DNA of 35,892 bases, taken from NCBI GenBank assembly GCA_029232285.1, contig JAOXFI010000035.1, forward strand, positions 1 through 35,892, given 5' to 3'. Made by a program: the position numbers and the translations under genes. The first letter of the stretch is position 1; each line of letters starts with the position of its first letter. This document shows, in pieces, positions 11,638-30,695 of this stretch. Below the pieces are notes generated by a model. The model ran no database searches. It saw only the letters and a list, made by a program, of their open reading frames with translations, and was not told the origin of the DNA. This stretch comes from Agmasoma carcini (nom. nud.) (lineage: Eukaryota > Microsporidia > Thelohaniidae).

Positions 11638-11959
11638 ATAAAAATTTGATGATTGAAATAAGTTTTTAAAATATTTATTGAAATAATAAATTAAAGGTGG
11701 TATGTTTTAAATTTACATCAGGAGAATGATTAGATTTGGATTATTATCATAAAGCGGCTTAATGACACGCAGCTCATTATCTAGTTAATCATAATGACAT
11801 AATACTAAAGTATTTACTAGACTATAAAAACTTTTTACAGAAATTACCCATCATTAACAGTCACATCAGGAAACAAAAGTACTCTACGCCATAAGGCAGG
11901 AATAATAAAACCTTTTAAACAAAGTTTATTTACATCGATAGACTCTTAGTACCACCCTT

Positions 11960-12565
11960 ACGTGTGGGTCATGACATGAAATAATAAAAGGTTATTTATA
12001 CAATATGCTTGTTCAAGCAAAAATATGAAACATAGTTGTATCGATTGCAAACCTTCTCCGCTAATATTCACATTTTTACAAAGAATCTTAATTATCAATA
12101 AACTTACATACGAGAAAGACCGAACCATCAGGTAAAAACACCCAAATCAAACAAAAAAACAAAATAATAAAATTTAATGTAAAAAGACAAAAATTAGGGA
12201 TAATGACTATATACTATTCGTGCTTCGGTAAAAGGCATTATAATTTTTTGATTGTCGATGCTATCTTAGATTGTGATAGTAAAATTTTATAGAAATCATA
12301 CTATAGGATGCATTATAACTGGGTTTAGTGGTATTACACACATGAATTAGCTTATATCTTCGAGATCCCAAAGTGGTATTTCCATGCCAATGGAAAAGAG
12401 GTGTCTATCTATCGACCGCGAGCCAGTTTCCCAGAGTATATGAGGTTATCTTTATTCCCCATGGTGGTGCTTTAGCCTCTGACATTTTATAGCCCAATAC
12501 TAATTGTTACAACTCCGCACCACGTGGAGGTCTGGACTCATCGAAGATGTGAGCCATGACAGCAT
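11960..12565 (+). repeat. Interspersed repeat family, copy A
   Basis: A non-coding repeat shared with copies B (29735-30252), C, D and E. Diagnostic blocks are a TTTACAAAGAATCTTAAT-like block, GACCGAACCATCAGGTAAAA, GGATGCATTATAACTGGGTT followed by TAGTGGTATTACACAC, GCTTATATCTTCGAGAT, AAGAGGTGTCTATCTATCGA and the distal block ACCACGTGGAGGTCTGGACT. The blocks keep the same order in other copies while the DNA between them drifts. No ORF is conserved. The outer boundaries are not sharply defined. 11638-11959 shows nothing else that can be supported. Confidence 0.8.
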
Positions 12566-12738
12566 TATCATACTTTCTTCATAACTGATATATCAATATT
12601 TTATAACCTAAACATTTTCTTAAAAGTATCTTTTTATACATATTCTATCCTATTACAATACTCCAAAAATAACCCATATACCCTTAAAAGTTGTTTTGAA
12701 ACCTTAAAAATATTAAATCAAAAACAATTATATACAAA

Positions 12739-13992
12739 GTTTCACGATATACATTCCAATTGTTTCAATCAAGTTTTCAATATTTTTAATTACAACTTTT
12801 TCAATATTTGAATCAAAATTCTAATCGTTGCAAACACGTTTCCAATAAAAAAATAATTATTTTAAACCATATGGTTAAGAGAAACTATGTTCGTATGCCA
12901 AATGAACAAAGAGAAAGGATATTGGTTAAAATCAGACAGAAATAATCAAACAAAAATATTTCAGAAATCCTGTGAATTAAATTATTGGTTTGTTATAAAA
13001 ATGGTAATAATTATCAAAAAACAAACCAAATAACCTTCAAACAACAGGGTGGTGACCATAAGCCTAAGTTTGATTCTGATCAAAAGGAACAAGTGAGAAT
13101 TGGGTTGATCAAAATCGTGTTATTTCACTAAAGAAACTTTGCAGAAGGATAGAAGTTAATTTAACTTTCAAGTATCTCGTAGCACTGTGGATAGGTTCTT
13201 GAGAGAGTTTCATTACACTATGAAACAGACGATAATAATCACTGCCCCTCGGAAGACAGAAATCAAAATTAGAGAACGTTCATTTTATGGACAAACGATT
13301 CGTGTATATAGAATAACTCATAACCCTGATCAGCTGGTGTTTTTGGACGAGGTTGTTTTGTCGTATTATTCAGACAAAAAAAGATGGTCTTTAATTAGAA
13401 CAACAGCTTTAGCAAGAACATGAAATATTTCTGTAATTGCTGCTATGAACTCTATGGTATGATATACTATAGAGTTCATGATAAGATTTTAACAGGGATG
13501 GACTTTTAGATTTGTCTTATTGGCATTGAAGCCGCTTGCGTTGAACATGCATTTTTGGTCCAGTTTTATAATAGATAATGCTCGTATACACCATTACGAG
13601 AGCTCGTCTGAAACTATTAACTGTCTAAGTTTAAAGATAGAATATCTTCCACCATATCCCTCTTCTTGAATCCAATTGAGAGTTGCTTCTTTAAATGTAA
13701 AATTTTTGATATTAAAGGAAAGGCAAAAAAACATAGTTGAATCTGGTTTATGGGAGATAAGTGCTTACAATTGTGATAAGTGTTTTAGAAAATTCCAAGA
13801 TATATCATCAAGTCGAGAAGACTAGAAAACATTTTTCAGTAAATGAGTTTAAGAATTTATTTAATTAAATAAAAAATATATTTGAAACCTGATTGCAATG
13901 TTGGCATAATAATTGCATATATTGAAAAAAAGTTGTTGATATGGAAATTATTAGAAATTTGATTGAAACAACTGCCAAATAGTTTGCGAAAC
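12739..13992 (+). mobile_element. Decayed Tc1/mariner (IS630-superfamily) transposon with ~110-bp inverted repeats
   Basis: The left end (about 12739-12850) and right end (about 13880-13992) are imperfect inverted repeats of roughly 110 bp. Both start at GTTTC(A/G)C, share TTGTTTCAATCAA about 24 bases in and then an ACAACTTTTT-TCAATAT block. Outside lies AATTATA on both sides, consistent with insertion at TA. The repeats enclose a broken DDE transposase (separate entry). Exact termini and target duplication cannot be fixed by eye. Confidence 0.75.
12871..13825 (+). pseudogene. Tc1/IS630-like DDE transposase, broken
   Basis: Begins with an intact ATG (MVKRNYVRMPNEQRERILVK) but hits stops and frameshifts throughout. 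Recognisable pieces, in frame-shifted order: the N-terminal helix-turn-helix region; VDRFLREFHYTM, and the longest open segment at 13187-13423 containing the first catalytic region (VFLDEVVLSYYSDKKRW); the second (FIIDNARIHHYES, about 13565-13600); and the third (IEYLPPYP, about 13635-13665). These are the D, D and D/E sites of Tc1/mariner-type transposases. No functional product is expected. Confidence 0.85.
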
Positions 13993-14219
13993 CCAATACT
14001 ATAATTTAAATTATTAATTATTAATTCGGTATGAATTATTTTATTACCAAAGACCAATAAAACTAGGCATATAAAAAACCATAAATTTCTCACCTGATTA
14101 AAATATAAATAATAACCACAATTAAAAAATATATTTCTGAATTCGACAAAGATTAAATTTCTGGTTGTTTTCTAAGGCATTTCAATTAATAAAATAAACG
14201 TAAAACCATATTAAAGATA

Positions 14220-14990
14220 TCTCTCCTACAAAAATGGGTTAGAAAACATAATAATGAAGAAAATGAAAAAAATGTGACAACTGGAATAGAACAGTTGATA
14301 TCAATAATATTTATTTAATTTAATATGATTGAATATGAATCAAGCGCCAGAGAATGAGCCTTTCATAAAGAAAAATACATCAATGGCGTTTCCCTAAACC
14401 AAAGTTATCAAATTTGCAAATGAGTGGTAGACTAAGAATTACTAAACAGTGATTATTTGAAGACGAATGCTACTATAGTTGTATTACTTTTTCGAAAAAA
14501 ATTTCTTTAAAATCTATAATTGCTCTAAGATGCAAAGGGTAGGGTAAAAGAAAAAAGACTATGCCTATAAACGAAACTGTTAAATTTGGTCAAAATAAAT
14601 ATTGGTCTAGGTTGCATGAGCAGAAATAAAGTTAAAAATTTGGTGTTTTACATTAAATTTAAAATATTTTATATTATACTAGAATGATTTAAATGAGAGG
14701 TACGAAAAATCCAATTTTAAATTTTAAATCCTATTAAGACAATAATATGTTAGACCAGATTTAATAGGAGCCGTATCTGAACTCAAACGAGCATCTGTAG
14801 GTTTATTTAAAGCAAAAATTAAGAAATATTGTTTTTTTAAATGAAGCAAATCTAAAAAATCAACATAGTTGAATATAATCTGGCATCTAGATTATATTGT
14901 AGAACACTGGTAGATTTTATGAGTGGCAGAATTAAAAAGGTTATATCATACATCATATCAAGAAATAGCACTGATATAATCCAAAAATGA
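14220..14990 (+). pseudogene. Highly decayed Tc1-like transposase remnant
   Basis: Scattered plus-strand frames resemble Tc1 transposase in order: GRVKEKRLCL...NLVKINIGLGCMSRNKVKNL (about 14530-14650), corresponding to the region just before and at the VWGCMS block, then LVDFMSGRIKKVISYI (about 14905-14955), like the C-terminal LVDSMPRRIQ block. Many stops and frameshifts separate them. No inverted repeats were found. Confidence 0.45.
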
Positions 14991-15059
14991 AATTTTAATA
15001 TTTTAAGACTTTCAAACAAACTTTTTGAGGTACTGTATATAAAATTTAAAAAAAATCAA

Positions 15060-15345
15060 TAAAATGTCTCTTATTCCCCTATTGAAACATATTTATCTAT
15101 CCATACATCAATTTTCTCATAAATGATATTAAATACTCCCAAAACCGTTCTATATTATTTGTGTATGTACCGTGTGAAGAAAATAAACCTCGACTATGAT
15201 TTACAAACCTATATTGTAGACTTTAATTGATTGTTATGAATGTATAATCACCAGCCATGAGAATACTACCCCACTAATAAATTGTTAGAGTGTATTTGAT
15301 GGTGTTGTGGTTTGTTTATTTTCAACACAAATATCTTTAAAATAT
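15060..15345 (-). pseudogene. IS1595/ISXO2 (Merlin)-type transposase remnant
   Basis: The minus strand encodes FVNHSRGLFSSHGTYTNNIE followed by RFWEYLISFMRKLM, the characteristic NHS..F..xxG.HTN.IE..W block that holds the last catalytic residue of ISXO2/IS1595 transposases. It is preceded, after a frameshift, by a degraded TIY*WGSILMAGDYTF segment corresponding to the T(I/V)xSDGWxxY second-catalytic block. The N-terminal zinc-ribbon part could not be found. Confidence 0.65.
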
Positions 15346-15682
15346 TGTCATTTTCTTCTATAAATGAATAAACATATATTAAAAAATTAAGGTTGATTTA
15401 TATATCAGCGTAAGTATGATTATACTTCGATAATAAAATAAAACCTGTTTTTAAGATTAACAATATGTAAATCTATCACAACAATAACACTTAAGACAAA
15501 ATATTTTGATTAATATCAAACAATGCTAATAATCTATTAATGAAAGCTGTTATTAAAATATAATGATTGTATTTCAAAGGTAAAATAATCCATTTAAAGT
15601 TATTTTTTTAAATACAATATAAGTTTAGTTTCAGTTGATCAAAGCTCTTTGTAAAATTAAAATAATTATTTTGTATATTTAT

Positions 15683-15838
15683 TATAGGGTTTTTCATCTA
15701 ATTGTAAATATTTCATACCTACTTACAAATTCATAATTTAGTATACAAATAGAGACTAACTAACTAATATTAAATTAATATATATATTTGTTTACCGATT
15801 GATGTGAAAAGTTTGTAATTGGATAGACAAATTCTATA
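15683..15838. mobile_element. 156-bp MITE, copy 2 (inverted relative to copy 1)
   Basis: Starts TATAGGGTTTTTCATCTAAT and ends with ATCTAATTACAAAC-like sequence inverted (GTTTGTAATTGGATAGACAA to TATA). Read on the minus strand it aligns with 9394-9549 end to end, including an internal block AATTTGTAAGTAGGTATGAA. Same length, diverged interior, with a TAACTAACTAAT run inserted or expanded. Confidence 0.8.
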
Positions 15839-15899
15839 ATAAATATACAAAATAATTATTTCAATTTTATAAAAATATTTAGATTTACGTTAGTTAAAT

Positions 15900-16035
15900 A
15901 TTATAAAATGTCCAATTTTGTATGGGGTGGTATTATAGGACGAAACAAAAAATGTTTCTTTTAAAAACAGTGAACTTCAGACGAGAATATTACAATAATT
16001 CAATTTTAGTGTATGAATTATTTTTTAAAAAAAAA
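15900..16035 (+). pseudogene. Possible Tc1/IS630 transposase fragment
   Basis: A plus-strand frame reads MSNFVWGGIIGRNKKCFF, then after a shift FRREYYNNSILVYELFF. This resembles the VWG.IS..GK...F...S..Y...L...L stretch preceding the second catalytic residue in Tc1-like transposases. It is short and only suggestive. Confidence 0.3.
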
Positions 16036-16140
16036 TTTTAATAATTTAAAATTAAATTTAAGCTTAAAATGCTGTTATTATTGATTTCAAGTGTAAAGAA
16101 GCCTTTTTTCAATATTTTTAAGATGTGTCGATTAAAAAGG

Positions 16141-16497
16141 TACTGCAAAGTGATAACGTTGGAAACAATGGCCAATTGGACCATAACAGATCAAGGGGCA
16201 GAGTATGACCATTAAAATACGAATAATCTTGCTCATTATGATTAACTAGTTAGCAGCCAATAGATATATACTTCAAGATCTCTCGTAATAGCACTAAGCC
16301 CAACTATAACACATCCTATAATATGTTGTTGTAATTTCAACATCATGAAGGCATAGCAATCAAATTTTTATACTTCCATTTACCAAAACAAGATAAGTGT
16401 ATGGTCGTTATTGTTTGATTTAATAACTTTTAACTTTGCCTGTTCAGCTTTATAGATCTATTGATATTAAGATTCTTTGTTAAAATAAGCGGAGAGT
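16141..16497 (-). repeat. Interspersed repeat family, copy D
   Basis: Read on the minus strand it carries, in the family order, ACAAAGAATCTTAATATCAA, an AACGACCATACACTTATC block, TTGTTTTGGTAAATGGAAGT, TATAGGATGTGTTATAGTTG followed by GGCTTAGTGCTATTAC, and TGGTCCAATTGGCCATTG with AACGTTATCAC. It lies 80 bases upstream of the thioredoxin start, so it may overlap that gene's promoter. Confidence 0.75.
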
Positions 16498-16576
16498 GTT
16501 CCAATTTATCCTACTTTGTTTAAGGTTTTTATATTTTTATTATTATTAGAAAGTTTTTAGTAAAAAATTTAACCCT

Positions 16577-16897: not shown

Positions 16898-16940
16898 AAA
16901 ATTGAATGCATAAATCTTTAAATTATTTATATATTAGTTA

Positions 16941-17010
16941 GTTATTCTATATATAATTTTTAGTTATTCTATAGATAATTTTTAGTTATTCTATAGATAA
17001 TTTTTAGTTA
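16941..17010. repeat. 22-bp tandem repeat, three copies
   Basis: GTTATTCTATAGATAATTTT plus TA is repeated three times with a 22-bp period; the first copy reads ATATATAA instead of ATAGATAA. It lies in the 3' flank of thioredoxin. Confidence 0.8.
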
Positions 17011-17092
17011 ATATATTTTAAAGCTAATAACATATATTTTATATTCAATATATGATTAATCAACATATTTTAAATTCATAATTTTTATCCTT

Positions 17093-17356
17093 ATGATAAT
17101 TCAAAGATACATAAACGCAACTATAAATGATAAAATAAGTCAAAATGGCCTAATAATATTCTGTAATGGCCCATTAAGTGATAAAATACTTAAAATAAAG
17201 CTTTGGGACAACTGGAAGGCTTCTGTTGTTGATAAAAATTATGATGTCATCATAGTTGGAGATATTCAAGAAAGTTTTAAAAAATTATACAAAAATATTT
17301 ATAATATTTCAAATCCTTCATTTACTAACGATGGACCAGTTACATTTCTAATATAG
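17093..17356 (+). CDS. Short DTD-like protein retaining the Gly-cisPro motif (putative split DTD partner)
   Basis: An 87-aa ORF. Its N-terminus (IIQRYINATI...NGLIIFCNG) and the VDKNYDVIIVGD strand can be aligned with the start and the central strand of D-aminoacyl-tRNA deacylase. The C-terminus NPSFTNDGPVTFLI carries the DTD C-terminal signature NDGPVTF (G81, P82), whose Gly-cisPro excludes L-aminoacyl groups in DTD. The SQFT catalytic-site motif is not present (VGDI is in its place), and the middle of the fold is missing compared with the usual 145-150 aa. A true DTD gene lacking the Gly-cisPro motif starts 183 bases downstream, with tRNA-Gln between. Only the C-terminal motif is strong; the rest of the alignment is by eye. 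The ATG follows CATAATTTTTATCCTT, similar to the leader of the DTD gene (AAACAATCCTT). Confidence 0.55.
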   Translation: MIIQRYINATINDKISQNGLIIFCNGPLSDKILKIKLWDNWKASVVDKNYDVIIVGDIQESFKKLYKNIYNISNPSFTNDGPVTFLI

Positions 17357-17426
17357 TAAATAAATAATAATTCTATTTCTAATATATTTATAAATTATAC
17401 AAAACTATAATAATATATTAAAATTA

Positions 17427-17498
17427 GGTTCCATAGTGTAATGGTTAGCACATAGGATTCTGATTCCTGTAATCTGAGTTCGATTCTCGGTGGGACCA
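17427..17498 (+). tRNA. tRNA-Gln (anticodon CUG)
   Basis: A complete cloverleaf without intron: acceptor GGTTCCA/TGGGACC with one T-G pair, D arm GTGTAATGGTTAGCAC, anticodon stem TAGGA/TCCTG around the loop TTCTGAT (anticodon CTG, reading CAG), and T arm CTGAG-TTCGATT-CTCGG. Internal A and B box sequences for Pol III are present in the D and T arms. A T7 run follows at 17502-17508. CAG is a minor Gln codon in an AT-rich genome; the CAA-reading tRNA must lie elsewhere. Confidence 0.97.
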
Positions 17499-17501
17499 TT
17501 A

Positions 17502-17508
17502 TTTTTTT
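17502..17508 (+). terminator. Pol III T-run terminator after tRNA-Gln
   Basis: Seven consecutive T residues begin four bases after the tRNA 3' end, the standard RNA polymerase III stop signal. It lies within the 41-base gap before the DTD start. Confidence 0.85.
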
Positions 17509-17539
17509 ATTTTGAAAATTTTAAAAAAAAACAATCCTT

Positions 17540-17929
17540 ATGAAAGTTGTAGTACAGGAAGTTTCTAAAGCAAGTGTTTTTAATTTTGAAGATAATATAT
17601 TTGTTTCTTCTATTGATAAAGGAATAGTTATATATGTAGGAATAGCACTTGGTGAGTCTCAAGACTCTAAAGATTGGTTGATAGATCAATTAACTAACAT
17701 TAAGTTCAATGAAATTTTAGTTTTATCACAATTTACTTTATTTGGAAATCTTAAAAAGAATAGACCAACATTTCATAAGGCAGAGTCATGTGATGTAGCA
17801 AGAAAATATTTTTATGAAATTTGTGATCTTCTAAAAAGTAAATTTGAGAATGTAAAAACTGGAATTTTTCAAAAACATTTGCTAATTGAAATAGAAAATT
17901 GTTCAAAATGTTATTTATTAGAAAATTAA
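17540..17929 (+). CDS. DTD1: D-aminoacyl-tRNA deacylase (DTD) lacking the C-terminal Gly-cisPro motif
   Basis: A 129-aa DTD, the enzyme that hydrolyses D-aminoacyl-tRNAs. N-terminal MKVVVQEVSKASV, the catalytic-site motif LSQFTLFGN (S63-Q64-F65-T66), and KKNRPTFHKAE...ARKYFYEICDLL are all typical. Two things are odd. About 14-17 residues between the second helix and the SQFT strand are missing (KFNEILVLSQFT joins directly). More important, the invariant C-terminal N(D/E)GPVT segment is replaced by ENCSKCYLLEN (residues 119-129) although the preceding VKTGIFQKHLLIEIE aligns, so Gly-cisPro is absent. The stop is not obviously a frameshift. The neighbouring 87-aa ORF keeps NDGPVTF, suggesting complementary partners. 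The ATG follows AAAATTTTAAAAAAAAACAATCCTT. Confidence 0.9.
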   Translation: MKVVVQEVSKASVFNFEDNIFVSSIDKGIVIYVGIALGESQDSKDWLIDQLTNIKFNEILVLSQFTLFGNLKKNRPTFHKAESCDVARKYFYEICDLLKSKFENVKTGIFQKHLLIEIENCSKCYLLEN

Positions 17930-17973: not shown

Positions 17974-18148
17974 ATTGCTTTTATATATTACAAGATAAGC
18001 TTGTAAAGATAATCATTATTAACACAGAAGAGGGTTACCCTTAATGATCACACACAATATCATTGCTTTTATATATTACAAGATAAGATGTAAAGATAAT
18101 CATTTTTAACACAGAAGAGGGTTACCCTTAATGATCACATATAATATT
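17974..18148 (+). repeat. ~88-bp tandem duplication with GAGGGTTACCCTT core
   Basis: Two head-to-tail copies, 17974-18061 (88 bp) and 18062-18148 (87 bp), beginning ATTGCTTTTATATATTACAA and containing ACACAGAAGAGGGTTACCCT then TAATGATCACA; a third partial copy (ATTGCTTTTATATA) begins at 18149. The AGGGT-T-ACCCT palindrome and ATTGC blocks are conserved between copies. The array fills the gap between the convergent DTD and 90-aa genes, so it is probably in both 3' regions. Confidence 0.9.
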
Positions 18149-18173
18149 ATTGCTTTTATATATAAAAAATATT

Positions 18174-18446
18174 TCAATATTTCTCAAAATAATCATCAGA
18201 CTCTAAAAACCGTTGTATCAGTTTTATGTTAACTTTGCTTAAAACCTCTACGAAATCACAAATAATTTCTTCACCATCCATTTTACCATGAAATCTTATC
18301 CATTCATTCCTTCTCAAACACTTACGTGTACTTACAATGACATTATTAGGTTTACAGGCCACTCTATATCTGTTATTTCCCATTCTATCTAATACATAGC
18401 CAATTGAATACACATCTGAACCATCTACCAAAATTTGAAAAAGCAT
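18174..18446 (-). CDS. Small protein, possible OB-fold (Rfa3-like)
   Basis: A 90-aa protein. Alternating strand-like segments (LFQILVDGSDVYSIGYVLDR, then RYRVACKP, NNVIVSTR, EWIRFHGKM, EIICDFVEVL) followed by a C-terminal helix (KVNIKLIQRFLESDDYF) match the strand order of a small OB-fold such as the 14-kDa subunit of replication protein A. No diagnostic residue proves this; Ten1-like or unrelated small OB proteins are alternatives. The ATG is immediately preceded by TTTTTTTTCCC, the CCC start signal, which supports it as a real gene. It converges on DTD across the tandem duplication. Confidence 0.55.
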   Translation of the reverse strand: MLFQILVDGSDVYSIGYVLDRMGNNRYRVACKPNNVIVSTRKCLRRNEWIRFHGKMDGEEIICDFVEVLSKVNIKLIQRFLESDDYFEKY

Positions 18447-18466
18447 GGGAAAAAAATAAAAATTAA

Positions 18467-18562
18467 TTTTATAATTAGAAGCATTAACTTTTTATAATTA
18501 GAAATATTGATTTTTTATAATTAGAAGCATTAACTTTTTATAATTAGAAATATCAATTTTCT
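18467..18562 (+). repeat. 46-bp tandem repeat, two copies
   Basis: ATAATTAGAAGCATTAACTT plus TTTATAATTAGAAATAT(T/C)(G/A)AT and a T-run is repeated with a 46-bp period starting at 18471 and 18517. It sits directly upstream of the 90-aa gene. Confidence 0.8.
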
Positions 18563-19489
18563 TTTATTTATATATAAAACTTTATTGATCAATGAATTTG
18601 TATAAATTATATATTTTGATATATTAAAGCTAATAAAGTGGTTTATGTTATATATTATAGTTTTAAATTGTTATAATTGAAATATTATGATATATCATAT
18701 AAGAAATAATAAACTTAATCATATTTATTTTATTAAAAACTGACTATAAAGAATATAAATACAACATATTTAATTCTTTTAAATGGGTGTTAGTGGTTAG
18801 TAAATATCACATTATTTATTTATGATATTTGTTGAAATTAAAGTTATTTTTTAATACTTTATCAAATTTTGATGTTGTATTTGTCTCAAAGCTTGTATCA
18901 TTCTTAAATATGTGATCTCGAGATTATAATGTATTAATTGTATACTATTGGTGTTGGGTTGAGATATTTAAGAGATTTGATATATATAAGACTGTAATTA
19001 GATTATCTCAATATCTGCAGGTGATGGATCAAGAAATATGAAAAAATAGATTCAAACAAAATATAAAAATCGGCATTTAATTATCTAAAAAATATTAACC
19101 TTTTAATATCAAATCATAATTAACTAACATTTTATTTATGGGTCAACATTGTTTATCACTGGTTTAAGATTATTCATATATTTTACTGTTATAATCATTT
19201 TTATAAAATTATTGTGATATATTTATATGTGTTGAAAAAATCTATATTAAATCTATGTTCTGGCATGGGTGAGGTCTCACAATTACTTAAATACTCTTGA
19301 GATAATGAAGATATATTATATATATGTTATTCTGATACAACAATATGTCATAAGTTATTTAAAAGAAAGATGCTGTCACAACTAAATCCAAATTCTTAAC
19401 TTTACTCGATTCATCCTATCAAGGGTTATACCATTTTTATATCAAATATATTATAAAGTCTTGAGATATTAATCAATCATTTCTTAATC
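18563..19489. other. Gene-free AT-rich DNA
   Basis: Read on both strands; no coding region, RNA gene or clear transposase block was found. Only short AT runs are apparent. It forms the left part of a 5-kb gene-free zone of decayed repeats. Confidence 0.4.
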
Positions 19490-19700
19490 AGCATAAGTGT
19501 AATAAATAATTATGTAGTTATTATTAGGACAAAGGATTGATATAAATATTTAATTGATCAAGATATTATGAAATACTTGGAATTTAATATCAAAAATTTA
19601 AGAGTTTTACCCTTGATACCATGGACGGTGATCAAGCATCCAAGTTGAATAAACGGTTTGAATATATTTGTTACAACAAATACCACACAATAATTTGGTG
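19490..19700 (-). repeat. Partial copy (G) related to interspersed repeat copy E
   Basis: The plus strand ATGGACGGTGATCAAGCATC with CAAGTTGAATAAACGGTTTG matches ATGGACGATGACCAGGGACG with CAAGTTAAATAAACAGTTTGG in copy E (about 22255-22295). The upstream blocks (GATCAAGATATT, CTTGGAATTTAA, TTACCCTTG) also follow in the same order. It covers only a part of E that is not obvious in copies A, B or D. Confidence 0.5.
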
Positions 19701-20009
19701 GATGTATAATATAATGTGTTTTTTAAGAGAGTATAAATCACGTTTAATAACTTTGAAATAAAATAATCTATAAGTAAATCGGTAAAAGTCTATTATAGGG
19801 CCAGGGATATTTTTCACAATAAAATAATTTTATCAAATGCTCAACTCAAAACGATAATAAAACAATATAATTCGTATTGATAAAATTCTAAGAGGATCTT
19901 TGACATCTCTCCTAAACTTAAATAGATCATCGGTAAAATTTTTTAATCTTGGTATTTAAAATTTTATTAATAAAAAGATCGAATCATATCTGTATGACAC
20001 TGATAGTTG

Positions 20010-20740
20010 CATCTTTATTTTACAAGAATTGGGTCTGCTATATAACGTTTTTCACTTACCAATTTATCACATCTCTTGTAATGTTTGAAATATACAAGAA
20101 ATGTTAATGACAAAACATTCAGATGCCTAAACAATATATATTATGGATATAAAAACATTTACAATTTGTAGAAATATTTTTTTGGGAATTTAAATATCGG
20201 GATTTCGATGATTTATAATATAAAATTATCAATAAGATATATAAAAAGCTTGATTTTAAATGTTTAGATCATTTTGATAAAAATCTAATACGATCAGGAT
20301 GCAGAAACGTAGTGTCAAATTGACGAGAGTTAATTCAAGCATAAAAGGAAAAATAGGTAAAGATGCCCTAATAACTGATGCTTAGATCTTTGGTATGGTA
20401 GATACATCTTCTAAAGTGTATTTGGAATATGTTCAAGACAGAAGTGAACTGTCTTTATCGTCTATAATCTAAAGAGTATGTAATGAAGGTACTATCATTC
20501 ATTCTGACGAATGGCGTTCAATTAAATCAAATATTATGGGGTTTCGCATGATACTTTTAATCATAGTATCAATTTTGTATATCCTATCACACCCGCTCAT
20601 ACTAAAAATATTGATGGACAAAGGTTAAGACATTAATCAAAGAGCGCAGAGGGTTGTTATCCACCAATTTAGATGCGTTTTGACTGGAATGATGTTTAAA
20701 GGCAGCATTATGGAAATGATTTTTTACAGATTATTGACTT
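20010..20740 (+). pseudogene. IS1595/ISXO2 (Merlin)-type transposase, broken, plus strand
   Basis: Successive frames carry the family blocks: an N-terminal remnant (SCNV and TFRCLNN-like segment, about 20060-20140), CQIDES-FKHKRK (first catalytic Asp block, about 20310-20350), VFGMVD-like IFGMVDTSSKVYLEYVQDRS (about 20385-20450), GTIIHSDEWRSIKS (second Asp, about 20488-20530), and HSINFVYPITPAHTKNID (about 20560-20620). Stops and frameshifts interrupt it at least four times. It faces the second copy at 20840-21660. Confidence 0.75.
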
Positions 20741-20839
20741 ATTAAAATACGTAGATCAGGGGCAAAATTTCCCCCCTGAACAAAAATATTATTTTAATTT
20801 AAATCATTTTTCAAAAACACCTCTAATGATACTGTCTTT

Positions 20840-21660
20840 TGCCATCATTTCCACTAGAAAACTTCTATTCTATTAGTTTGTGAAACCTTGCTTTTATACA
20901 TGTCTTGATCTTTCTCCAATATGACTCAAAATTCTGAGTATGAGTGGAGGTTAAAGGATCAACAAAGTTAGCACTATGATTAATTGTGCGATAAATCAAA
21001 CCACGCCGAGAGTATATTCTAGAATATGTTTACTATTCATCAGAATATATCACTGTACCCTCTCTACAGACAAGTCTGATAATAGGTAATAAACTCAGCG
21101 CACTTCTATCATCAATATGTTTTATGTATACTATGGAAGGTATTAGCGACACCTAACCCATATAGATCATTATTCTAATACCCATCCTTTGAATTTTTTT
21201 GTGTTTGAATTGATTTTCATCAACCTGACAAACAACGCTCGTTCCTCCCAACATCATCGTATGTGCATCAAAATAATCCACACCCTGAAATTAAATTATT
21301 TATAAATTTTAATTATCGTTTTATTTGAAAACCCAGTCAAATTGACAACTTTGATAACTGTTGTATCATTTAACCAAAAAACAATTATTTTTAATATATA
21401 TCTAATGATGTATTAAAGTCATCAAAAAACTATTTTTACGAATTGAGAAATATTTTTTTAAAATTAGTGCAAGGTTTATAAAAACATCTAAAAGTCTTCT
21501 TATATACTTTTCTTGTATAATTTGATATAATACACGGAACACGACAGATTGGACATGCATAGTTCCTCTATAATACACCCAAATCTTGTATAAATATAAT
21601 TAATTTTCGTTAATATTTAACAATGGCTCAATATTTCTTAAAAATAATAAGTTACACGGT
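20840..21660 (-). pseudogene. IS1595/ISXO2 (Merlin)-type transposase, broken, minus strand (best preserved)
   Basis: On the minus strand, in order: zinc-ribbon-like CPICRVPCIISNY...FRC...C (about 21555-21460), a helix-turn-helix like region with DTTVIKVVNLTGFSNKTIIK (about 21370-21310), MMLGGTSVVCQVDENQFKHK (first Asp, about 21265-21205), DDRSALSLLPIIRLVCREGT followed by VIYSDE (second Asp, about 21110-21040), and TINHSANFVDPLTSTHTQNF plus ESYWRKIK (last catalytic Glu, about 20985-20910), ending at a stop near 20865. Several stops and one or two frameshifts remain. This is the clearest ISXO2-type element in the window. Confidence 0.85.
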
Positions 21661-22009
21661 ATTATAAAAATTAAAAATATTTTTTTTGAAAAAGAGGAGA
21701 ATTTATTTATTATCTTCTGAAGAGAAATTTTACTGATGATCCAAAAATTCTAAGCTAAATAATAAGAATATTGATATTTGGGTTGATAACAAAAAAACCT
21801 TTAATGAATGGTGTAATATTATACTGAATTTTTCATTTTAAGCTTAAAGTAAACAATAGAAAGGGTTAATTTTTTAAAACAAAATATGAAAAGAAGTGTA
21901 TCAATGTAATTATAAAGTGTGGTCTTGGTTGTTTAATATATTAGGGTGGATGTATGAGAGTAGTCAAGAAATTTGGTGTTATTAAATGATAGATTTATAT
22001 TATAGCATT

Positions 22010-22594
22010 ACTACGAGTCCAGATCTTTACGTGATACAAAGTGATAACGTTGAAAACGATTGATAATTGGACTGTGACAGGTTAGGATTGTTGAAGATAA
22101 CTGTTGTGATCAGCAAGTATAAACTAATGATTTATTGTATAAGAAATAATTCTAGCTGATCAACATTAATTATATTCAGTAAGATATCTCAATTAAAATA
22201 GAACAATATCTCAAGATATATTTGGAGTATTTAAATGTTCTTAACCTTGGCAGGATGGACGATGACCAGGGACGCAAGTTAAATAAACAGTTTGGTTTTA
22301 GTGGCGACAACAATAACTTTGTTCATATTGACAAATAGTTTATATTCGATAGACAGAAAAGTGCTACTTCTTGAATATAAATTTGGTTATTGTGTGTAAT
22401 AGCATCAAACCCAGCTACAACCGCATCCTATGATATGGTGTCTTTAAAATCTTATTGTCGTCACCTATAAAAAGTATGAAAATTAAGTTTTTACACCGTC
22501 TTTTACCAAACCAGAATAAATATCTGGTCATCACCTCTTGCCGTTTGGCTCTTTCACGTTTTATTTATTTATAGATTTTTTTGTAGAATAAGCT
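22010..22594 (-). repeat. Interspersed repeat family, copy E
   Basis: The minus strand carries AATCTATAAATAAATAAAAC, GATGACCAGATATTTATTCT followed by GGTTTGGTAAAAGACGG, CATAGGATGCGGTTGTAGCT followed by GGGTTTGATGCTATTACACAC, and near its other end GTCACAGTCCAATTATCA with AACGTTATCAC and TAAAGATCTGGACTCG. These match copies A and D in order. It also contains the segment shared with copy G. Confidence 0.78.
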
Positions 22595-22699
22595 TAAAAA
22601 ACAGTGGGTTTCTGATCGATACTATATTATGTTTTCATATTTTTACCTGAGTAAACATATTAAATAAATAATTTTATTATTATTAATAAAATTATAACA

Positions 22700-23060
22700 G
22701 TATAATTGTTATTCTGGCACAAATTCTGAAGATATATATCTTTAGGGCAACTTATCCTTCACTATGACAATATTATTTTAACTAAAATGATATTAATAGT
22801 ATGGATTAGTCAGCTCAGTCACCTGATTTGAATCCAATTGAATATATTTGGTTATATTTGAAAAAAATTAATATTTCTATAAAAATCAAATTTATAATTA
22901 GTCTTGACATGAAAAAGGGGAATATTTATATTAACCGTTCATATCAGAATCTGCTATATCCTGATTGAGAGGGTCACATTAATTTTTTTATCAAAATAAT
23001 AAGAAAAACTTATATCTTAAAATATAGTAACATTTTGTATTTAAAATTTATATTAATAGT
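22700..23060 (+). pseudogene. Tc1/mariner transposase C-terminal fragment
   Basis: The plus strand near 22803-22875 encodes MD*SAQSPDLNPIEYIWLYL, the highly conserved third catalytic block of Tc1-type transposases, followed by KKINISIKIKF. Frames upstream are too decayed to follow. No inverted repeats were found. 23061-23779 holds only AT-rich DNA with no supported feature. Confidence 0.7.
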
Positions 23061-23779
23061 TTAGGGTTATCTGATTTTCTATTAATGTATAAACAATATG
23101 ATTTACTTAGCCCTTTTTACATGATCTTGAATAATTTATTAAGCTATAACAGCATAATTGATAATATCTAAAGGAAATAATTATTCAATATCGTAACAAT
23201 CAAGATAATCCTAATAAATACAAAATAGATAATAACAATTGTATTATTACTAGAATTTGATCATCAAATGCCATAATTTTCAATATTTTACATTTTATAC
23301 ATAGTTAACCAAAAATAATCATACATAATCAATATATAAAAAAATTTACAAAATTTGTATAATATAACAAAATAAAATACAATTAATCAAATATGTTAAA
23401 TATTAATAAATGTATTATGAATGAATAAATAGTAAGCCAAATATAATCAGCTTATGTTATTTTGTTTATTCTTAACAATAAAACATCACCATGTTAAAAA
23501 AAATTAATTATAACAATATTAAATCTTATATTATATTCATTAATAAAATATTTGTTTAAAAAATGATATTTTATTTATAACAAGCAAATATTATTAATAA
23601 TTGTTTATTATATTAATTCAAATTAAAATATCATGATTTATTGCTAAATTATAGAAAATAACACATAAATGAGCTATATATCTAATTAATAATAAAAGGA
23701 GAAATATCACAGACGAATTATTAAATCTTTATTGTATTTTCTTTCTATAAATAAAAAAAAATTTATCAAACCTCAAACT

Positions 23780-25363
23780 ATGTCAAAAAAGATCTCAGCA
23801 AATTTGAATGAAGAAGAATTCTACGTTCAAAGAAGAGAAATGTTAAAGGAATTTGAAGCACAGGGCTTTGCAACACACCCACACAAGTATGAAGTAAAGG
23901 ATTCTTTCTCTAACTTAGTTGAGTCAGCTAAAGACATTCCTTCTGGTGACATAACAGATAAAATAGTACAATCAGCAGGTAGAATCATTTCATTACGTGA
24001 TTCTAGCTCAAAACTTAAGTTCTACACTTTGGAAAGCAATGACATCCCTTTCCAACTTATATACAAGGCTGATCTAGCACCAACTGAATCACTCAAAAAA
24101 CTAACAGAATACCTCAGAAGAGGTGATATCGTAGGATTTAAAGGCTCACTCGGCAAGTCACAAAGAGGTGAACCTTCCGTTTATGTTAGTGAAATAGTAC
24201 TACTAAGTCCTTGCTACAGAGTCATACCTTCTTCAGCTAAAAATAGCTTAACAGACCCTGAAATCATCTATCGTAAAAGATACCTTGATCTTTTGGTCAA
24301 CAAGGACTCTAAGGAAAGATTCAAGCTAAGATCAAAAATAGTTCATTACTTAAGGGACTTCTTCGTTAGCAGAGATTGCATAGAGACCGAAACACAAATG
24401 ATGAACCTGATCTCAGGCGGTGCTACTGCTAAACCTTTCATCACCCATCACAATGAACTCAAAATGGACCTCTTTTTAAGAGTTGCTACCGAAATATCCC
24501 TAAAAATGTTAGTTATCGGTGGCTTTAATGGTGTATTCGAAATTGGTAAAGTTTTTAGAAATGAAGGTATAGATTTAACTCATAACCCAGAATTTACTTC
24601 ACTTGAGGCTTATCTTGCTTATCATGATTATAACGACTTAATGAACATCATTGAAGAATTATTAAACGGACTTGTTAAAGAGATAAAAGGCTCTGAAAGT
24701 TTTGTTTATAAGCCAAAAAAGAGAGGCACAAAAGATTTCGAAGCACCTTTGAACTTTTCAAGACCTTTCAAAAGATTTGATGTTCTTGACGAGATCAATA
24801 AAAATTTAAATCTTAATCTTGATGGTGAGGCTATTAACAATCCTGAAAACTTGGATTTGTTATTACAGAAAGCAAAGGAGCTTAACATTGAAATCAAAGA
24901 GCCAATAACTCTTAACAGAGTTCTTGATGCATTTATTGGTGAGTTTATAGAACCACATTGTGTTTCTCCTACTTTTATCACTGGTTTCCCTATTTGTATG
25001 TCTCCACTTGCCAAAGATGATCGTAATAGGCCAGGATTGACAGAAAGATTTGAGCTATTTGTCGCTGGTAAGGAGTTGGTCAATGCTTATACTGAATTGA
25101 ATATACCTGATGTTCAGAGGGAAAGATTCCTTATGCAGGCAGATGATTCTAAAGCTGGTGATGAAGAAGCAATGCCTGTTGATGAAGACTTCTGTGTTGC
25201 TTTAGAATATGGTTTGCCTCCTACTGGTGGTTTAGGAATTGGTATTGATCGATTGGTCATGTTCTTGACGGATGCTGCTAATATTAGGGATGTTATACTT
25301 TTCCCAACAATGAAACCAGATGCACAGCCTGATATTTCAAATTTAAAGGTGTCAAAAGAATAA
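23780..25363 (+). CDS. KRS1: Lysyl-tRNA synthetase, class II (cytosolic)
   Basis: A 527-aa class IIb aminoacyl-tRNA synthetase that charges tRNA-Lys. Start chosen at ATG 23780 (MSKKISANLNEEEF); the frame is open 48 bases further up to a TTG, which has no support. An N-terminal helix is followed by the anticodon-binding OB fold (about 50-145, with SAGRIISLRD), then the catalytic core: YRKRYLDLLVN (about 164-174), the GGATAKPF block (213-220), motif 2 FRNEGIDLTHNPEFT (about 260-274) and motif 3 GGLGIGIDRLVMFL (483-496). The C-terminus FPTMKPDAQP fits eukaryotic enzymes. All motifs are intact. It is isolated on the left by the gene-free zone and converges on the phosphate exporter gene. Confidence 0.97.
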   Translation: MSKKISANLNEEEFYVQRREMLKEFEAQGFATHPHKYEVKDSFSNLVESAKDIPSGDITDKIVQSAGRIISLRDSSSKLKFYTLESNDIPFQLIYKADLAPTESLKKLTEYLRRGDIVGFKGSLGKSQRGEPSVYVSEIVLLSPCYRVIPSSAKNSLTDPEIIYRKRYLDLLVNKDSKERFKLRSKIVHYLRDFFVSRDCIETETQMMNLISGGATAKPFITHHNELKMDLFLRVATEISLKMLVIGGFNGVFEIGKVFRNEGIDLTHNPEFTSLEAYLAYHDYNDLMNIIEELLNGLVKEIKGSESFVYKPKKRGTKDFEAPLNFSRPFKRFDVLDEINKNLNLNLDGEAINNPENLDLLLQKAKELNIEIKEPITLNRVLDAFIGEFIEPHCVSPTFITGFPICMSPLAKDDRNRPGLTERFELFVAGKELVNAYTELNIPDVQRERFLMQADDSKAGDEEAMPVDEDFCVALEYGLPPTGGLGIGIDRLVMFLTDAANIRDVILFPTMKPDAQPDISNLKVSKE

Positions 25364-25788
25364 AAAAATCTTTCTATTTTTATCTTTTTAACTAAATATT
25401 GAATATTTTATTTTAAAACTTTATATTCTACTTAATATGTTGAAGTAAGAACATGAATAAATATTTTTTATTCTTTTCTGCACATTTTCAAAAATTTCTG
25501 ATCACTTATATTCTCATATGACAGTGGTTGTCGAATGAAACAATAATCAGACATATTTTTATTAAAATTGAACCAAAAATAAATGTATTTTACTTACTAT
25601 ATAATAATATTATTATTAATGATGCTCTTCTATCTTAAAGGATTTCAAAATAGTTTACATTCGGCTCATGTCCGATTTAAGAGACTTTTGAAAATCCCTC
25701 GTGTCCCTTGAAACGAACATAAGCCTTATATTCTTTAGTAATTTATTTATATGGGTTTTCATAATAAAATTTATAGTTTTTAATTTTT
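25364..25788. other. Intergenic region with a nested inverted repeat
   Basis: Between the convergent LysRS and exporter genes. Around 25640-25705 an inverted repeat AGGATTTCAAAA / TTTTGAAAATCCCT encloses a second stem TCGG-CTCATGT-CCGA. This block is less AT-rich than the flanking DNA and is followed by CTCGTGTCCCTTGAAACGAA. It could be a structured RNA, a 3' processing element or a short mobile-element remnant; nothing else is seen. Confidence 0.35.
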
Positions 25789-27801
25789 TTATTCATCTTC
25801 GTCTTTATAAGTATTATCTAAGTGCTCATCTTCTGATTCATAACTACTATGTGTTATTTCATCCCTTTTTATAGTATTTTTACATTCCATGCTATCATTT
25901 CTATCAGCATTTGACTCATATGAACTCTCCTCTCCTTCTTCATCAGTCTCACTTAAATTATTATTTTTGATTCCATCCCCATCATTCTCATCTAAGTCGG
26001 TTGAACTAAGAAGGTCTTCAGTTATTTCATCATCTGCACCTGTATCAAATAAGCTCGATGAGTCAATATTCATTCGATCACCAATCATAGTATCATTTTC
26101 ATTCTCTGTTTCAGTTTCTGTTTCTGTCTGAAGATAAATCTGATCTACTTCTCTTTTATAGAACAATTCACCAGCAGCTAGATCCATATCAGTAAGTAAT
26201 TTAAGCTTACTACAATTATTTAGATGCTCCACCTCAACCCGAATTACAGACCAGACAAATCTTCTTAATATTTCTATTATTGATTTTTCAAATTTATGGT
26301 CTTTAATTTCATAAACCCAAAGAAACCTAGCAAATAAATTATAAACTATGGCCATACCATAAACATATTTGTAAAAAAGAAACTTCTTTCGCGTCAAAGC
26401 CCAATCAACAGTTAAATCCCAAGTAAAGGATGCTATAGTAGTAGCTAAGCCTAAGAAAAACATTATTCCGTGATTAACATTTAAAAGACCTTGATCACTA
26501 ACAAAAGCTATATACGAGGAAATGAAGCCCAATACATATTTTAAAGAGTTAAGGACTTGTATCTTTGATTTGGGGTTCCCAACAAATCTAGTTAAGCACT
26601 GTACTATTCTAATTATATGGAAAGATGATAAAACACAGAAAATGCAATATTCATTTTCAATTCCAGAAAACCTTAATAAAATCTCAAAAGGATACTTAAA
26701 ACTTTGCGCTACATCAACAAAGAAGAAATGTCTGAACGAAACTTTAGACCAAGGAATTAACAGCACACGACAAATCACACTCAAGAAATATATTCTAGAA
26801 GCATTAAAAAGTGTATCAAATGGGATACAAAATACTATAACGTTTATTAAAGGGATAAAATTTACGTAAAGTTTTGGTAATGTAAGTGTTAAAACAAGAT
26901 TGGCCAACATAAAACACGATACCACCATCATATATCGTTGATTGTTCATTGTTGAACCTTGATTGAAATTAAAAATAAATTTATAATTGATATTCATAAT
27001 CTTAAATAACTTACAACACAACCCAAATAATACAAATCCGCACATTATCAGAAAACAAGAGAAATAAGAGATATAGTCAATCATGTTAGAATATGAGTAT
27101 GATGTGCACACTCCTATGAAAAAGAAGCTAAAAATATATAAAAAGTCACTCGATTGGACACCGCTCTGTATTCTCTTGAATAAGGACAAGACCTGTGCGT
27201 CTGTCTTAGCAAAAACCTTCTTATATATTTTTTTTGTCTTAGTCTGAACATCATCAATAATTGTTGATGTGTAGATTGATGAATTTTCAAGCTTAAAAAA
27301 GAATTCATTCATGTTAGAATCATAAGGACAGTTTTCAGCATGTAATTCGGCCAATTTCTTAAATGCGCGTATGTTTAAGTCTTTAAATCCGTTGATTTTA
27401 ATCAGACTATGAAGAAATTCAGACACCTCCTTTTCCTTCTTCCTGATGTTTATAGCATTTGGTAATTGAAATATTCTTCCCAGTAATGAGATTTGTTGAG
27501 GTGGGCTTGGAAATAATGCTGTGATGTCGGTCGTGCCATCAGCGTCTCTCTTTACACTTCCTTTTGCTGTTTTTTGTGTGTTTCTATTGTGATCTCCTAT
27601 TAGATAGTTAAATAATTTTTCTTTGTCTGACAGTGCTTGTTTTTCCAAATAATTGTAAAAGTCGTTAACTTTTCTTAATTGATCCTCCATCATTAAAAAG
27701 AAGTCATCATGCCCAATTACTTTTTCTAGAAGCTCGTATTGTACGTAAAATTCTCTCCACTCGCTTGCTCTACAATTTTTTAGAATGTAAGAGAATCCCA
27801 T
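25789..27801 (-). CDS. SYG1: SPX-EXS phosphate exporter (SYG1/XPR1 family)
   Basis: A 670-aa membrane protein of the SYG1/XPR1 family, inorganic phosphate exporters gated by inositol pyrophosphates through the SPX domain. Start set at ATG 27801 (MGFSYILKNCRASEWREFYV), which matches the usual SPX beginning; a TTG 33 bases upstream is not credible. Residues 1 to about 190 are the SPX domain (EWREFYVQYELLEKVI; INGFKDLNIRAFKKL). Hydrophobic helices lie at about 222-270 and 288-350; the EXS domain spans about 365-530 with RIVQCLTRF, LKYVLGFIS, WDLTVDWAL, RFLWVYEI and RRFVWSVIRVEVEHLNN. The tail (about 550-670) is strongly acidic with a TETETETENEND run. Diverges from a 48-codon ORF whose ATG lies two bases away. 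Confidence 0.93.
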   Translation of the reverse strand: MGFSYILKNCRASEWREFYVQYELLEKVIGHDDFFLMMEDQLRKVNDFYNYLEKQALSDKEKLFNYLIGDHNRNTQKTAKGSVKRDADGTTDITALFPSPPQQISLLGRIFQLPNAINIRKKEKEVSEFLHSLIKINGFKDLNIRAFKKLAELHAENCPYDSNMNEFFFKLENSSIYTSTIIDDVQTKTKKIYKKVFAKTDAQVLSLFKRIQSGVQSSDFLYIFSFFFIGVCTSYSYSNMIDYISYFSCFLIMCGFVLFGLCCKLFKIMNINYKFIFNFNQGSTMNNQRYMMVVSCFMLANLVLTLTLPKLYVNFIPLINVIVFCIPFDTLFNASRIYFLSVICRVLLIPWSKVSFRHFFFVDVAQSFKYPFEILLRFSGIENEYCIFCVLSSFHIIRIVQCLTRFVGNPKSKIQVLNSLKYVLGFISSYIAFVSDQGLLNVNHGIMFFLGLATTIASFTWDLTVDWALTRKKFLFYKYVYGMAIVYNLFARFLWVYEIKDHKFEKSIIEILRRFVWSVIRVEVEHLNNCSKLKLLTDMDLAAGELFYKREVDQIYLQTETETETENENDTMIGDRMNIDSSSLFDTGADDEITEDLLSSTDLDENDGDGIKNNNLSETDEEGEESSYESNADRNDSMECKNTIKRDEITHSSYESEDEHLDNTYKDEDE

Positions 27802-27808
27802 AGATGGG
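27797..27808. promoter_or_regulatory. Palindromic double start CCCAT-AG-ATGGG
   Basis: The 12-mer CCCATAGATGGG contains the exporter's ATG on the minus strand (27801-27799) and a plus-strand ATG (27804-27806), each with CCC five bases upstream. Microsporidian genes often carry a CCC- or A/T-tract motif within about 15 bases of the start, so one palindrome could serve both genes. Upstream A/T tracts (ATTTTTTAG on plus, AATTTCTTCAAAATTA on minus) lie inside the opposite coding region. Confidence 0.45.
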
Positions 27809-27950
27809 TAATTTTGAAGAAATTTGTATTTCAATTGAACGTATGGAAAAAGAGCTAAAAAGGATGGAAAACAACATATCAGAGCTAGTAGGACAGTATA
27901 AGAAGATAAGTGAGTTTGTTGAGGGTCAAAAGAGCTTACTTTTTGAATAA
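27804..27950 (+). CDS. Tiny coiled-coil protein (48 aa), possible gene
   Basis: ATG 27804 to TAA 27950 encodes a 48-residue, charge-rich helix starting MGNFEEICISIERMEKELKR and containing NISELVGQYKKISEFV with heptad-like spacing. It overlaps none of the exporter's coding region except for its shared start region. The size and the NISELVG...ISEF pattern weakly recall the small DASH/Dam1-complex subunits such as Dad1 (kinetochore), but this is only a by-eye resemblance. Support for a real gene is the CCC start signal and clean codon composition in otherwise non-coding AT-rich DNA. Confidence 0.42.
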   Translation: MGNFEEICISIERMEKELKRMENNISELVGQYKKISEFVEGQKSLLFE

Positions 27951-28683
27951 ATTCTAAAAATGTTTGTATTTTTTTAGTGTATGAAAATTTTTATAAAAAA
28001 ATGAAAAAAATAAATTTCAAGCAAAATATACTAAAAGATGTTGTTTTTTATAAATTAGTATCTATAGTTAATAAAAAAACGCTTTATTGATGATATAATT
28101 ATGTATATACAAAGATATATTTATAAAAATGCTACAAGGGGTAATTTTAATAAAAATTGTATTTTATCCATATAGTAAGTAATATAATGTGATGTTTGAG
28201 TATTTATTTTGAATCTCTCCTGGTATATCCAAATTAAGTCAAAAATTTAAGAATTAAAATATTTTTTAAATTTACATACAAACAAAAACAAATAATATAT
28301 AAGATTCATGTATCATTTTTATTTTGTTAAAAGTTAAAATTAACCATGTTTATTTTATTACATCAAATCTATGATCAAAGGCTAACGAAATATAGCAAAA
28401 ACGCAATTATAACATTAATAGAAGTGATATAGACAAATATCGGATCCAATAACCATAAAAATCACAAATATTTAAACGTGTATAAATGATTATACATTAA
28501 TACTCAATATGAATATACCGTGTTGTTGATATTAATGTTAATAAAAGGTTTGGGGTTACAATTCAATACAAAAACTCATAAAATATTATAAAATATTCAA
28601 TAAGCAACCCAATAGCACAAATACATTCATATTTTACAAAAAATGAATGCCTTAAGCAATGATGACCAAATTTATCAAAATAT
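27951..28683. other. Gene-free AT-rich spacer
   Basis: No ORF of convincing length, RNA gene or repeat block was found between the tiny coiled-coil ORF and the 3' end of the pseudouridine synthase. Confidence 0.4.
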
Positions 28684-29688
28684 TTATTTAATATATGTAA
28701 AACCATCAGCATGATAACTCACTATATCTAAAAACTTCAACCATTCATCAATGTTATCCTCTTTCAGTATTTCTTTATAAATAAAATCCTTACAAAATTG
28801 ATCTTTTCCATCAGTAGCAAGATATCCATATTCCTCACCATAGTGCTTGTTATAATCATCAAACTTAATATCATATAAGAATAAATACTCAGATGGTGAT
28901 TTTGGTATATTGTAGTCGGATTGCTTATCAAAAGCAGAATTGAAATCAATATTATTATATCTTGTACACATTACAGCATATGACATCATTTTTCTAATTT
29001 GATGTAACAAAAAACTTTGACCATGTATAATAATCTCTAAATATTCAATATCATTATCAATAAACTTATTAATATCAATACTAATGATATTTCTACTTTT
29101 AGATTGTGTATTTGATTTTAAAGTAAAGTTATGAAATAATTTAGTACCGACAAAGTTCATAACATTGGCTTTGAACTTATCATACTGTTGATCAGATAAT
29201 CTAAATTTATGATTATCAAATGTATATTCTCTCTTAAATTTCTCGCTATCACCATCCTTTTCAGTTAAAGACTCTTTGTCAGATTGCAAATCACTTTCTT
29301 CAAGAACAAATGTAGGTATATGATATTTATATATTCTGCTTCGAGCTCTTGTATGAGGAAAGAATGACTTTGGGTGTTTAACAATAGAATAGAGAAATAT
29401 ATTGTGGACTAAAAGGTCCTTTTTAAGGTTTGAAATCAATTCATCTGTAATGGGGACGATAATCTTAGCAGTTGTCAGATTAAATGCTGCGTGTACGCCT
29501 TTATCAGTCCTTGAGGCTGATTTCATTCCAATTTTAGTTGCTTCCTCAGAATTCTCCTTCTTAATGCAATTATTTTGAAGTAATACGTCAATAATAACCT
29601 TCTCTATTGTATGCAATTCCTTGTTGAACTGCAATCCTTTAAATTCTGTGCCTAAATAACCAGTTAACAGTCCAATCTTTTTCTTCAT
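28684..29688 (-). CDS. PUS1: tRNA pseudouridine synthase, Pus1/TruA family
   Basis: A 334-aa enzyme that isomerises uridine to pseudouridine in tRNAs (and U2 snRNA in yeast). The N-terminus GLLTGYLGTEFKGLQFN is the Pus1-type G-Y-x-G-T-x-(Y/F)-x-G-x-Q block, HTIEKVIIDVL follows, and the catalytic motif SASRTDKGVHA holds the active-site Asp62. Later blocks FFPHTRARSRIYKYHIP (about 107-123), GTKLFHNFT and IHGQSFLLHQIRKMM (about 222-236) complete the family set. A low-complexity acidic insert (ESDLQSDKESLTEKDGDSEK) lies at about 129-148. Shorter than yeast Pus1 (544 aa) but the catalytic domain is whole. The ATG follows an A/T tract (AAATTTTTTTTTAAAAAAAA). Interspersed repeat copy B begins 47 bases upstream. 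Confidence 0.93.
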   Translation of the reverse strand: MKKKIGLLTGYLGTEFKGLQFNKELHTIEKVIIDVLLQNNCIKKENSEEATKIGMKSASRTDKGVHAAFNLTTAKIIVPITDELISNLKKDLLVHNIFLYSIVKHPKSFFPHTRARSRIYKYHIPTFVLEESDLQSDKESLTEKDGDSEKFKREYTFDNHKFRLSDQQYDKFKANVMNFVGTKLFHNFTLKSNTQSKSRNIISIDINKFIDNDIEYLEIIIHGQSFLLHQIRKMMSYAVMCTRYNNIDFNSAFDKQSDYNIPKSPSEYLFLYDIKFDDYNKHYGEEYGYLATDGKDQFCKDFIYKEILKEDNIDEWLKFLDIVSYHADGFTYIK

Positions 29689-29734
29689 AATTTTTTTTTA
29701 AAAAAAATTTATAAATAAATAATTAACAGACAAC

Positions 29735-30252: not shown

Positions 30253-30695
30253 TAATATTGCCTGATGTTGCTCGTTCGCATATTTTTATAAAATAAATAA
30301 CACTACCAATGTAGTATACTTCAACTGGTGGGTGGTATGATAATGATAATTTGTTTATGGTTGTCCTATCTATGATATACATTTTATTAGTGTTTAGTAT
30401 CAGAAATGATACTTAATACAATCTAGCACTTGTATGAATACTTCTATAGCTATTAAAAGACTTATTTATTGTATTTTTTAATTTATAACATGACTAAGTT
30501 GATTGTCTAAAAAATTGTTTTATCTTACAAGATACTTTAAAATAAGATTTATTTTTACTGGATTACAGCAGTAGTCTTTGATGGAGTGCATTTATCGATT
30601 TTTATAAATAAAATACTTAAATGTGATGTATTGATATATCTATAAAACTTCATTAGATTATTTTTTTCTAATTTATTTATATTGAAAAATTAAGA

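Follow-up and report, generated by a model that had tools for sequence, protein, structure and literature searches.

A candidate D-aminoacyl-tRNA deacylase divided between two neighbouring genes in the microsporidian Agmasoma carcini

Layout of the locus

Two short open reading frames (ORFs) related to D-aminoacyl-tRNA deacylase (DTD) lie next to each other on a 35,892-nucleotide stretch of DNA from the microsporidian Agmasoma carcini (nom. nud.) (contig JAOXFI010000035.1 of assembly GCA_029232285.1), and residues essential to DTD are divided between them. The whole of this stretch, with a GC content of 26%, is referred to here as the window. On the + strand, an ORF of 87 amino acids (aa) is followed by a tRNA-Gln(CTG) gene and an ORF of 129 aa. 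Re-reading of the sequence bore out the coordinates, frames and motifs of both ORFs given in a preliminary description, namely the C-terminal TNDGPVTFLI of the 87-aa ORF and the SQFTL and C-terminal ENCSKCYLLEN of the 129-aa ORF. The tRNA noted there between the two ORFs was recovered with both ARAGORN and Rfam. The features of the locus are as follows.

17085..17095, + strand: start context of the 87-aa ORF, TTATCCTT-ATG, with CCTT abutting the ATG
17093..17356, + strand: 87-aa ORF, read as a shortened DTD paralogue and proposed 'Gly-Pro donor' (ORF list, profile and pairwise tests)
17427..17498, + strand: tRNA-Gln, anticodon CTG, separating the two ORFs (ARAGORN; Rfam RF00005, 62 bits)
17532..17542, + strand: start context of the 129-aa ORF, CAATCCTT-ATG
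17540..17929, + strand: 129-aa ORF, DTD paralogue and proposed 'catalytic pocket' subunit (Pfam PF02580)

The 129-aa protein

The 129-aa protein matched PF02580 with 83.5 bits (cut-off 25), and its score against NCBIfam TIGR00256 was 60 bits, under the cut-off of 101.5. SQFTLF, NRPTFHKA and TGIF are retained, so that SQFTL and the Phe and Ala of the adenine pocket are all present (columns 87-91, 112 and 137 of the Plasmodium enzyme, PfDTD). This part was modelled as a DTD fold with high confidence, at 1.1 Å, from an input alignment that consisted of DTDs. At the position of the NxGPVT motif the protein has NCSKCY, where 85 of the 85 comparison DTDs have Gly-Pro, and at the position of Arg7 it has Glu, where 84 of the 85 have Arg. 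In addition, 16 residues (the LRIFEDEEGKMNLSV region) are absent ahead of EILVLSQFT. Neither this loss nor the Glu had been noticed in the preliminary description.

The possibility had been raised that a frameshift at the end of this gene hides GPVT in another frame. No GPVT was found by eye in the other two forward frames at the 3' end, and the conserved Asn stands at its usual distance from the end of the protein; at the level of the sequence, therefore, a simple frameshift does not conceal the motif. A bacterial DTD, HR23 (L038 601-1041), carries FQEHMLVEV where most DTDs have FGADMxV, and keeps Gly-Pro. The FQKHLLIEI of the 129-aa protein resembles it, and this change is thus compatible with a Gly-Pro-bearing DTD.

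The 87-aa protein

The 87-aa protein retains Q4-R5 (R5 being at the Arg7 position), KILKIKLWDNWKASVVDKNYDVIIV, which corresponds to LRLWNNDNKTWDKNVKDLNYELLIV in Plasmodium DTD, most of the LRIFEDEEGKMNLSV region, and NDG81P82VTF. It has GDIQ in place of SQFT, and both the stretch of helix 1 and the adenine-pocket stretch TGxFGAxM are missing. Tyr_Deacylase was the sole Pfam match reported at E<=10 (E 0.0058). Its 17.4 bits did not reach the PF02580 cut-off of 25, and the match spans residues 28-78, with GPVT outside it. The NCBIfam search gave no match, and phmmer against PDB returned chance-like rows only. A profile of 80 DTDs matched the protein in two colinear pieces with a single-test E of 5.4e-5 and ranked it 2nd of the 66 six-frame stretches of at least 60 aa in the window. 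Scores as high were obtained by 2 of 20,000 shuffles (about 16,900 of which received any profile score), both with this profile and with a second one containing 5 extra rows. Profile-profile comparison gave P 6e-4 and a probability of 28.5% over 31 columns, with P 0.15 for one control ORF.

Gap-tolerant pairwise alignment gave z values of 9.8 to the Plasmodium DTD and 9.6 to the human DTD, neither reached in 5000 shuffles each. When NDGPVTFLI was removed, the values were 5.5 (1/5000 shuffles) and 7.05 (0/5000) respectively. None of 707 natural fragments, taken from 15 other genes of the window, matched the score of the 87-aa protein under either of two gap schemes. The claim that the likeness to DTD extends beyond NDGPVTF was thus upheld, and the pairwise, shuffle and fragment tests together identify the 87-aa protein as a DTD relative, a relationship that rests on the pairwise tests.

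Several properties bear on whether the 87-aa ORF is a living gene. Stops make up 8.3% of intergenic triplets, and 87 codons would stay open by chance with a probability of 5.3e-4. In 3000 runs of a neutral simulation, which started from the present ORF and allowed substitutions only, 34 frames were still open at <=45% identity, and none of the 3000 had also retained QR and NDGPVT. CCTT abuts the ATG in both DTD ORFs; among 674 intergenic ATGs it does so once. A CC in the 8 bases before the ATG was found in 8 of 17 genes, both DTD ORFs among them, as compared with 81 of the 674 intergenic ATGs.

Division of the active site

Forty-five columns are conserved in at least 85% of the 85 comparison DTDs. 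Twelve of them are kept by the 129-aa protein only, 8 by the 87-aa protein only, 8 by both and 17 by neither. In the mutational data presented in PMC3845328, F137A, A112F, G149A and P150A each abolish the activity of PfDTD, as do the equivalent changes in the E. coli enzyme; single changes of the SQFT side chains are tolerated in PfDTD, except for a partial loss with S87A. The 129-aa protein has kept the Phe and Ala equivalents and lost Gly-Pro, and the 87-aa protein has kept Gly-Pro and lost the stretch with Phe and Ala. Arg7, described as contacting the Gly-cisPro of the same monomer (PMC5802732), travels with Gly-Pro: both are in the 87-aa protein and neither is in the 129-aa protein.

The preliminary description had proposed that each gene lost one half of the site and that the two proteins work only as a heterodimer. 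The complementary halves were confirmed at residue level, and the split is sharper than had been held, because the mutation-sensitive residues and Arg7 are what divides. The obligate heterodimer is a step further, which we infer from this pattern. Because the Gly-Pro of one subunit works at the site of the other, the two proteins together could build one complete site, which neither could alone. If each gene has retained one of two elements, a complementary pair is by itself no unlikely outcome; the argument therefore leans on the frames being open and on the retained residues making functional sense together. The heterodimer is plausible and is strengthened at residue level.

Comparison with known systems

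The DTD family (DTD1, PF02580), including PfDTD and the E. coli enzyme (EcDTD), shares its fold, SQFTL and adenine pocket with the 129-aa protein, and Gly-Pro with its Arg with the 87-aa protein. The DTDs described in PMC3845328 and PMC5802732 form homodimers that have two sites, and both halves are borne by each subunit, whereas here the halves are encoded as separate polypeptides. The Animalia-specific tRNA deacylase (ATD) is likewise a DTD paralogue with an altered Gly-Pro region and without Arg7. However, ATD is homodimeric and retains Gly-Pro, in the trans form. Its motifs, PQATL and TNGPYTH (PMC5802732), are in neither protein, the corresponding positions being SQFTL and NCSKCY in the 129-aa protein and GDIQ and NDGPVT in the 87-aa protein. 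The N-terminal editing domain of archaeal ThrRS is fused to the synthetase, whereas the 129-aa ORF is free-standing; the 129-aa protein is 12-16% identical to this domain and nearer to DTD. Pairs of paralogues in which a homodimer has become an obligate heterodimer exist, such as ADAT2/ADAT3 and Trm6/Trm61, and the proposed pair resembles them in that a duplication would have been followed by a division of labour between subunits. To our knowledge, no such pair has been described for DTD.

Within the 4.26-Mb assembly, the 129-aa ORF was the one match to Tyr_Deacylase. DTD2 (PF04414) gave no match in this genome, while 4 of 14 control genomes matched. Thus these searches brought up no intact DTD beside which the pair would be redundant. 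Protein searches returned no microsporidian DTD, the word filter being blunt for short divergent proteins; Nosema ceranae AAJ76_2000104532 is annotated as a D-tyrosyl-tRNA deacylase in PMC13273367. An affinity of the window with Nosema or Vairimorpha, as first thought, was not supported by LysRS, the one gene compared. The LysRS of the window is closest to those of Enterospora canceri (62%), Enteropsectra breve and Pancytospora philotis (60% each) and Vittaforma corneae (59%), as compared with 53% for Vairimorpha necatrix and 52% for Nosema granulosis.

The proposed heterodimer and alternative explanations

It is proposed that both ORFs are diverged copies of one DTD gene that have become complementary subunits. 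The 129-aa subunit would provide the aminoacyl-adenosine pocket, with the adenine-stacking Phe, the pocket Ala and SQFTL, and the 87-aa subunit would be a reduced partner that inserts Gly81-Pro82 into this pocket across the interface, its own Arg5 holding Gly81-Pro82 in place. Each pair would thus have one composite active site, as compared with two per homodimer, and may clear D-aminoacyl-tRNA, and also Gly mischarged on tRNA, like DTD. Complementary subunits of this kind, with the catalytic pocket on one protein and Gly-Pro on the other, are tentatively taken as the best account of the locus. The fuller version, in which a chiral-proofreading enzyme became, through duplication, an obligate heterodimer sharing a single composite site, with the 87-aa protein left as a minimal scaffold for the Gly-cisPro filter, is put forward a shade more cautiously. 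An origin by tandem duplication, expression of both genes, formation of the heterodimer and catalysis are presumed in both versions. The DTD homodimer is symmetric, each pocket being completed by the chirality filter of the other subunit. If true, the fuller version would be a natural separation of the DTD catalytic pocket from the chirality filter, in which filter and pocket could be varied independently and the action of Gly-cisPro in trans could be tested directly. It would also mean that a lineage with sloppy translation kept chiral proofreading through complementation after duplication, not that it lost it.

A number of observations weigh against the heterodimer. Seventeen of the 45 conserved columns are lost from both proteins, and much of the DTD fold is gone from the 87-aa protein. 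The two proteins showed no mutual similarity (BLASTP; pairwise z -0.2). In a tree of 35 of the 88 rows, with rough support, they were not sisters, and their branches were 6.42 and 4.65 long, the median being 0.4. P0001, the sole comparison DTD to carry Glu in place of Arg7, retains Gly-Pro. No usable model of the complex was obtained; in a model of the read-through chain the 87-aa part was poor, with block-mean pLDDT of 36-55. Only the 129-aa part was served by the rows of the alignment (47 of the 80 loci and P0001), their placement being read from invariant columns. No relatives with the same pair were found, P0001 being the sole relative, and of the 129-aa protein. The family search missed the 87-aa ORF itself, and an equally diverged third copy would escape it as well. 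Finally, codon scoring gave the 87-aa ORF a low value, 0.052 bits per codon, against 0.134 for the 129-aa ORF and 0.001 for the gene at 7466. Two of 20 intergenic control ORFs and 6 of 21 overlapping ones had higher values, and codon usage therefore does not settle the status of the 87-aa ORF.

The long branches, the columns missing from both proteins and the low codon score would also be expected if both DTD genes were decaying in a parasite tolerant of mistranslation, the 129-aa gene having lost its selectivity motif and the 87-aa ORF being a remnant that kept NDGPVT by chance. PMC11415595 and PMC7644102, which both cite Melnikov 2018, describe microsporidia as having lost synthetase editing and as error-prone in translation, and decay is for this reason a serious rival. 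Nevertheless, neither frame is interrupted, and a DTD fold is still predicted for the 129-aa part. Neutral drift seldom leaves 87 codons open, by the chance estimate and the simulation given above, and the survivors in the 87-aa protein include a functional pair, Arg and Gly-Pro. Furthermore, two matches to tRNA_SAD, the family of AlaRS and ThrRS editing sites, remain in the genome, which has therefore not lost every such editing domain. Decay is considered less likely than the heterodimer.

It is less probable again that the 129-aa protein acts by itself as a homodimer of altered specificity, clearing some L-aminoacyl-tRNA in the manner of the archaeal ThrRS editing domain or of ATD, with no part for the 87-aa protein in that function. 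The 87-aa protein might instead have a regulatory or dominant-negative role as an inactive partner, or fold with something different, leaving the 129-aa protein to bind tRNA without catalysis. A complete site in neither protein alone would fit such a role, but the 129-aa protein has kept Phe, Ala and SQFTL, probably more than a mere binder needs, and this explanation is regarded as very improbable. Least credible is that the loss is mimicked by an error of sequencing or assembly in the 129-aa gene, or by a chimeric contig, as NCSKCYLLEN preserves spacing and frame, no other forward frame read by eye holds GPVT, and the missing 16 residues leave the frame intact and lie at a separate place.

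Neighbouring sequence

Tandem repeats flank the two ORFs. A 22-bp unit (3.3 copies, 98% match) lies at 16938-17010, upstream of the 87-aa ORF. Directly downstream of the 129-aa ORF, at 17974-18163, is an 87-bp unit repeated 2.2 times (94%) that includes GAGGGTTACCCTTAATGATCAC; a DNA search of the genome matched this repeat at a single place, 17974-18163 itself. It is followed by a weak eIF1A-like ORF at 18174-18446, which scored below the cut-off.

Translation-related genes are clustered at 23780-32381, where LysRS, PheRS beta and a tRNA pseudouridine synthase are encoded. For the B3/4 editing domain of PheRS beta, the match covered positions 36-126 of the 174 in the profile. Two regions of about 5 kb each, 11638-16576 and 18447-23779, have nearly no ATG-started ORFs of at least 60 aa (one, of 67 aa), and no Rfam match was found within them. 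Such ORF-poor stretches are unusual for a compact microsporidian genome and are possibly decayed genes or mobile elements. The contig begins with about 14 copies of a 9-bp tandem repeat, TGACCGACA, at 1-126, which could be subtelomeric.
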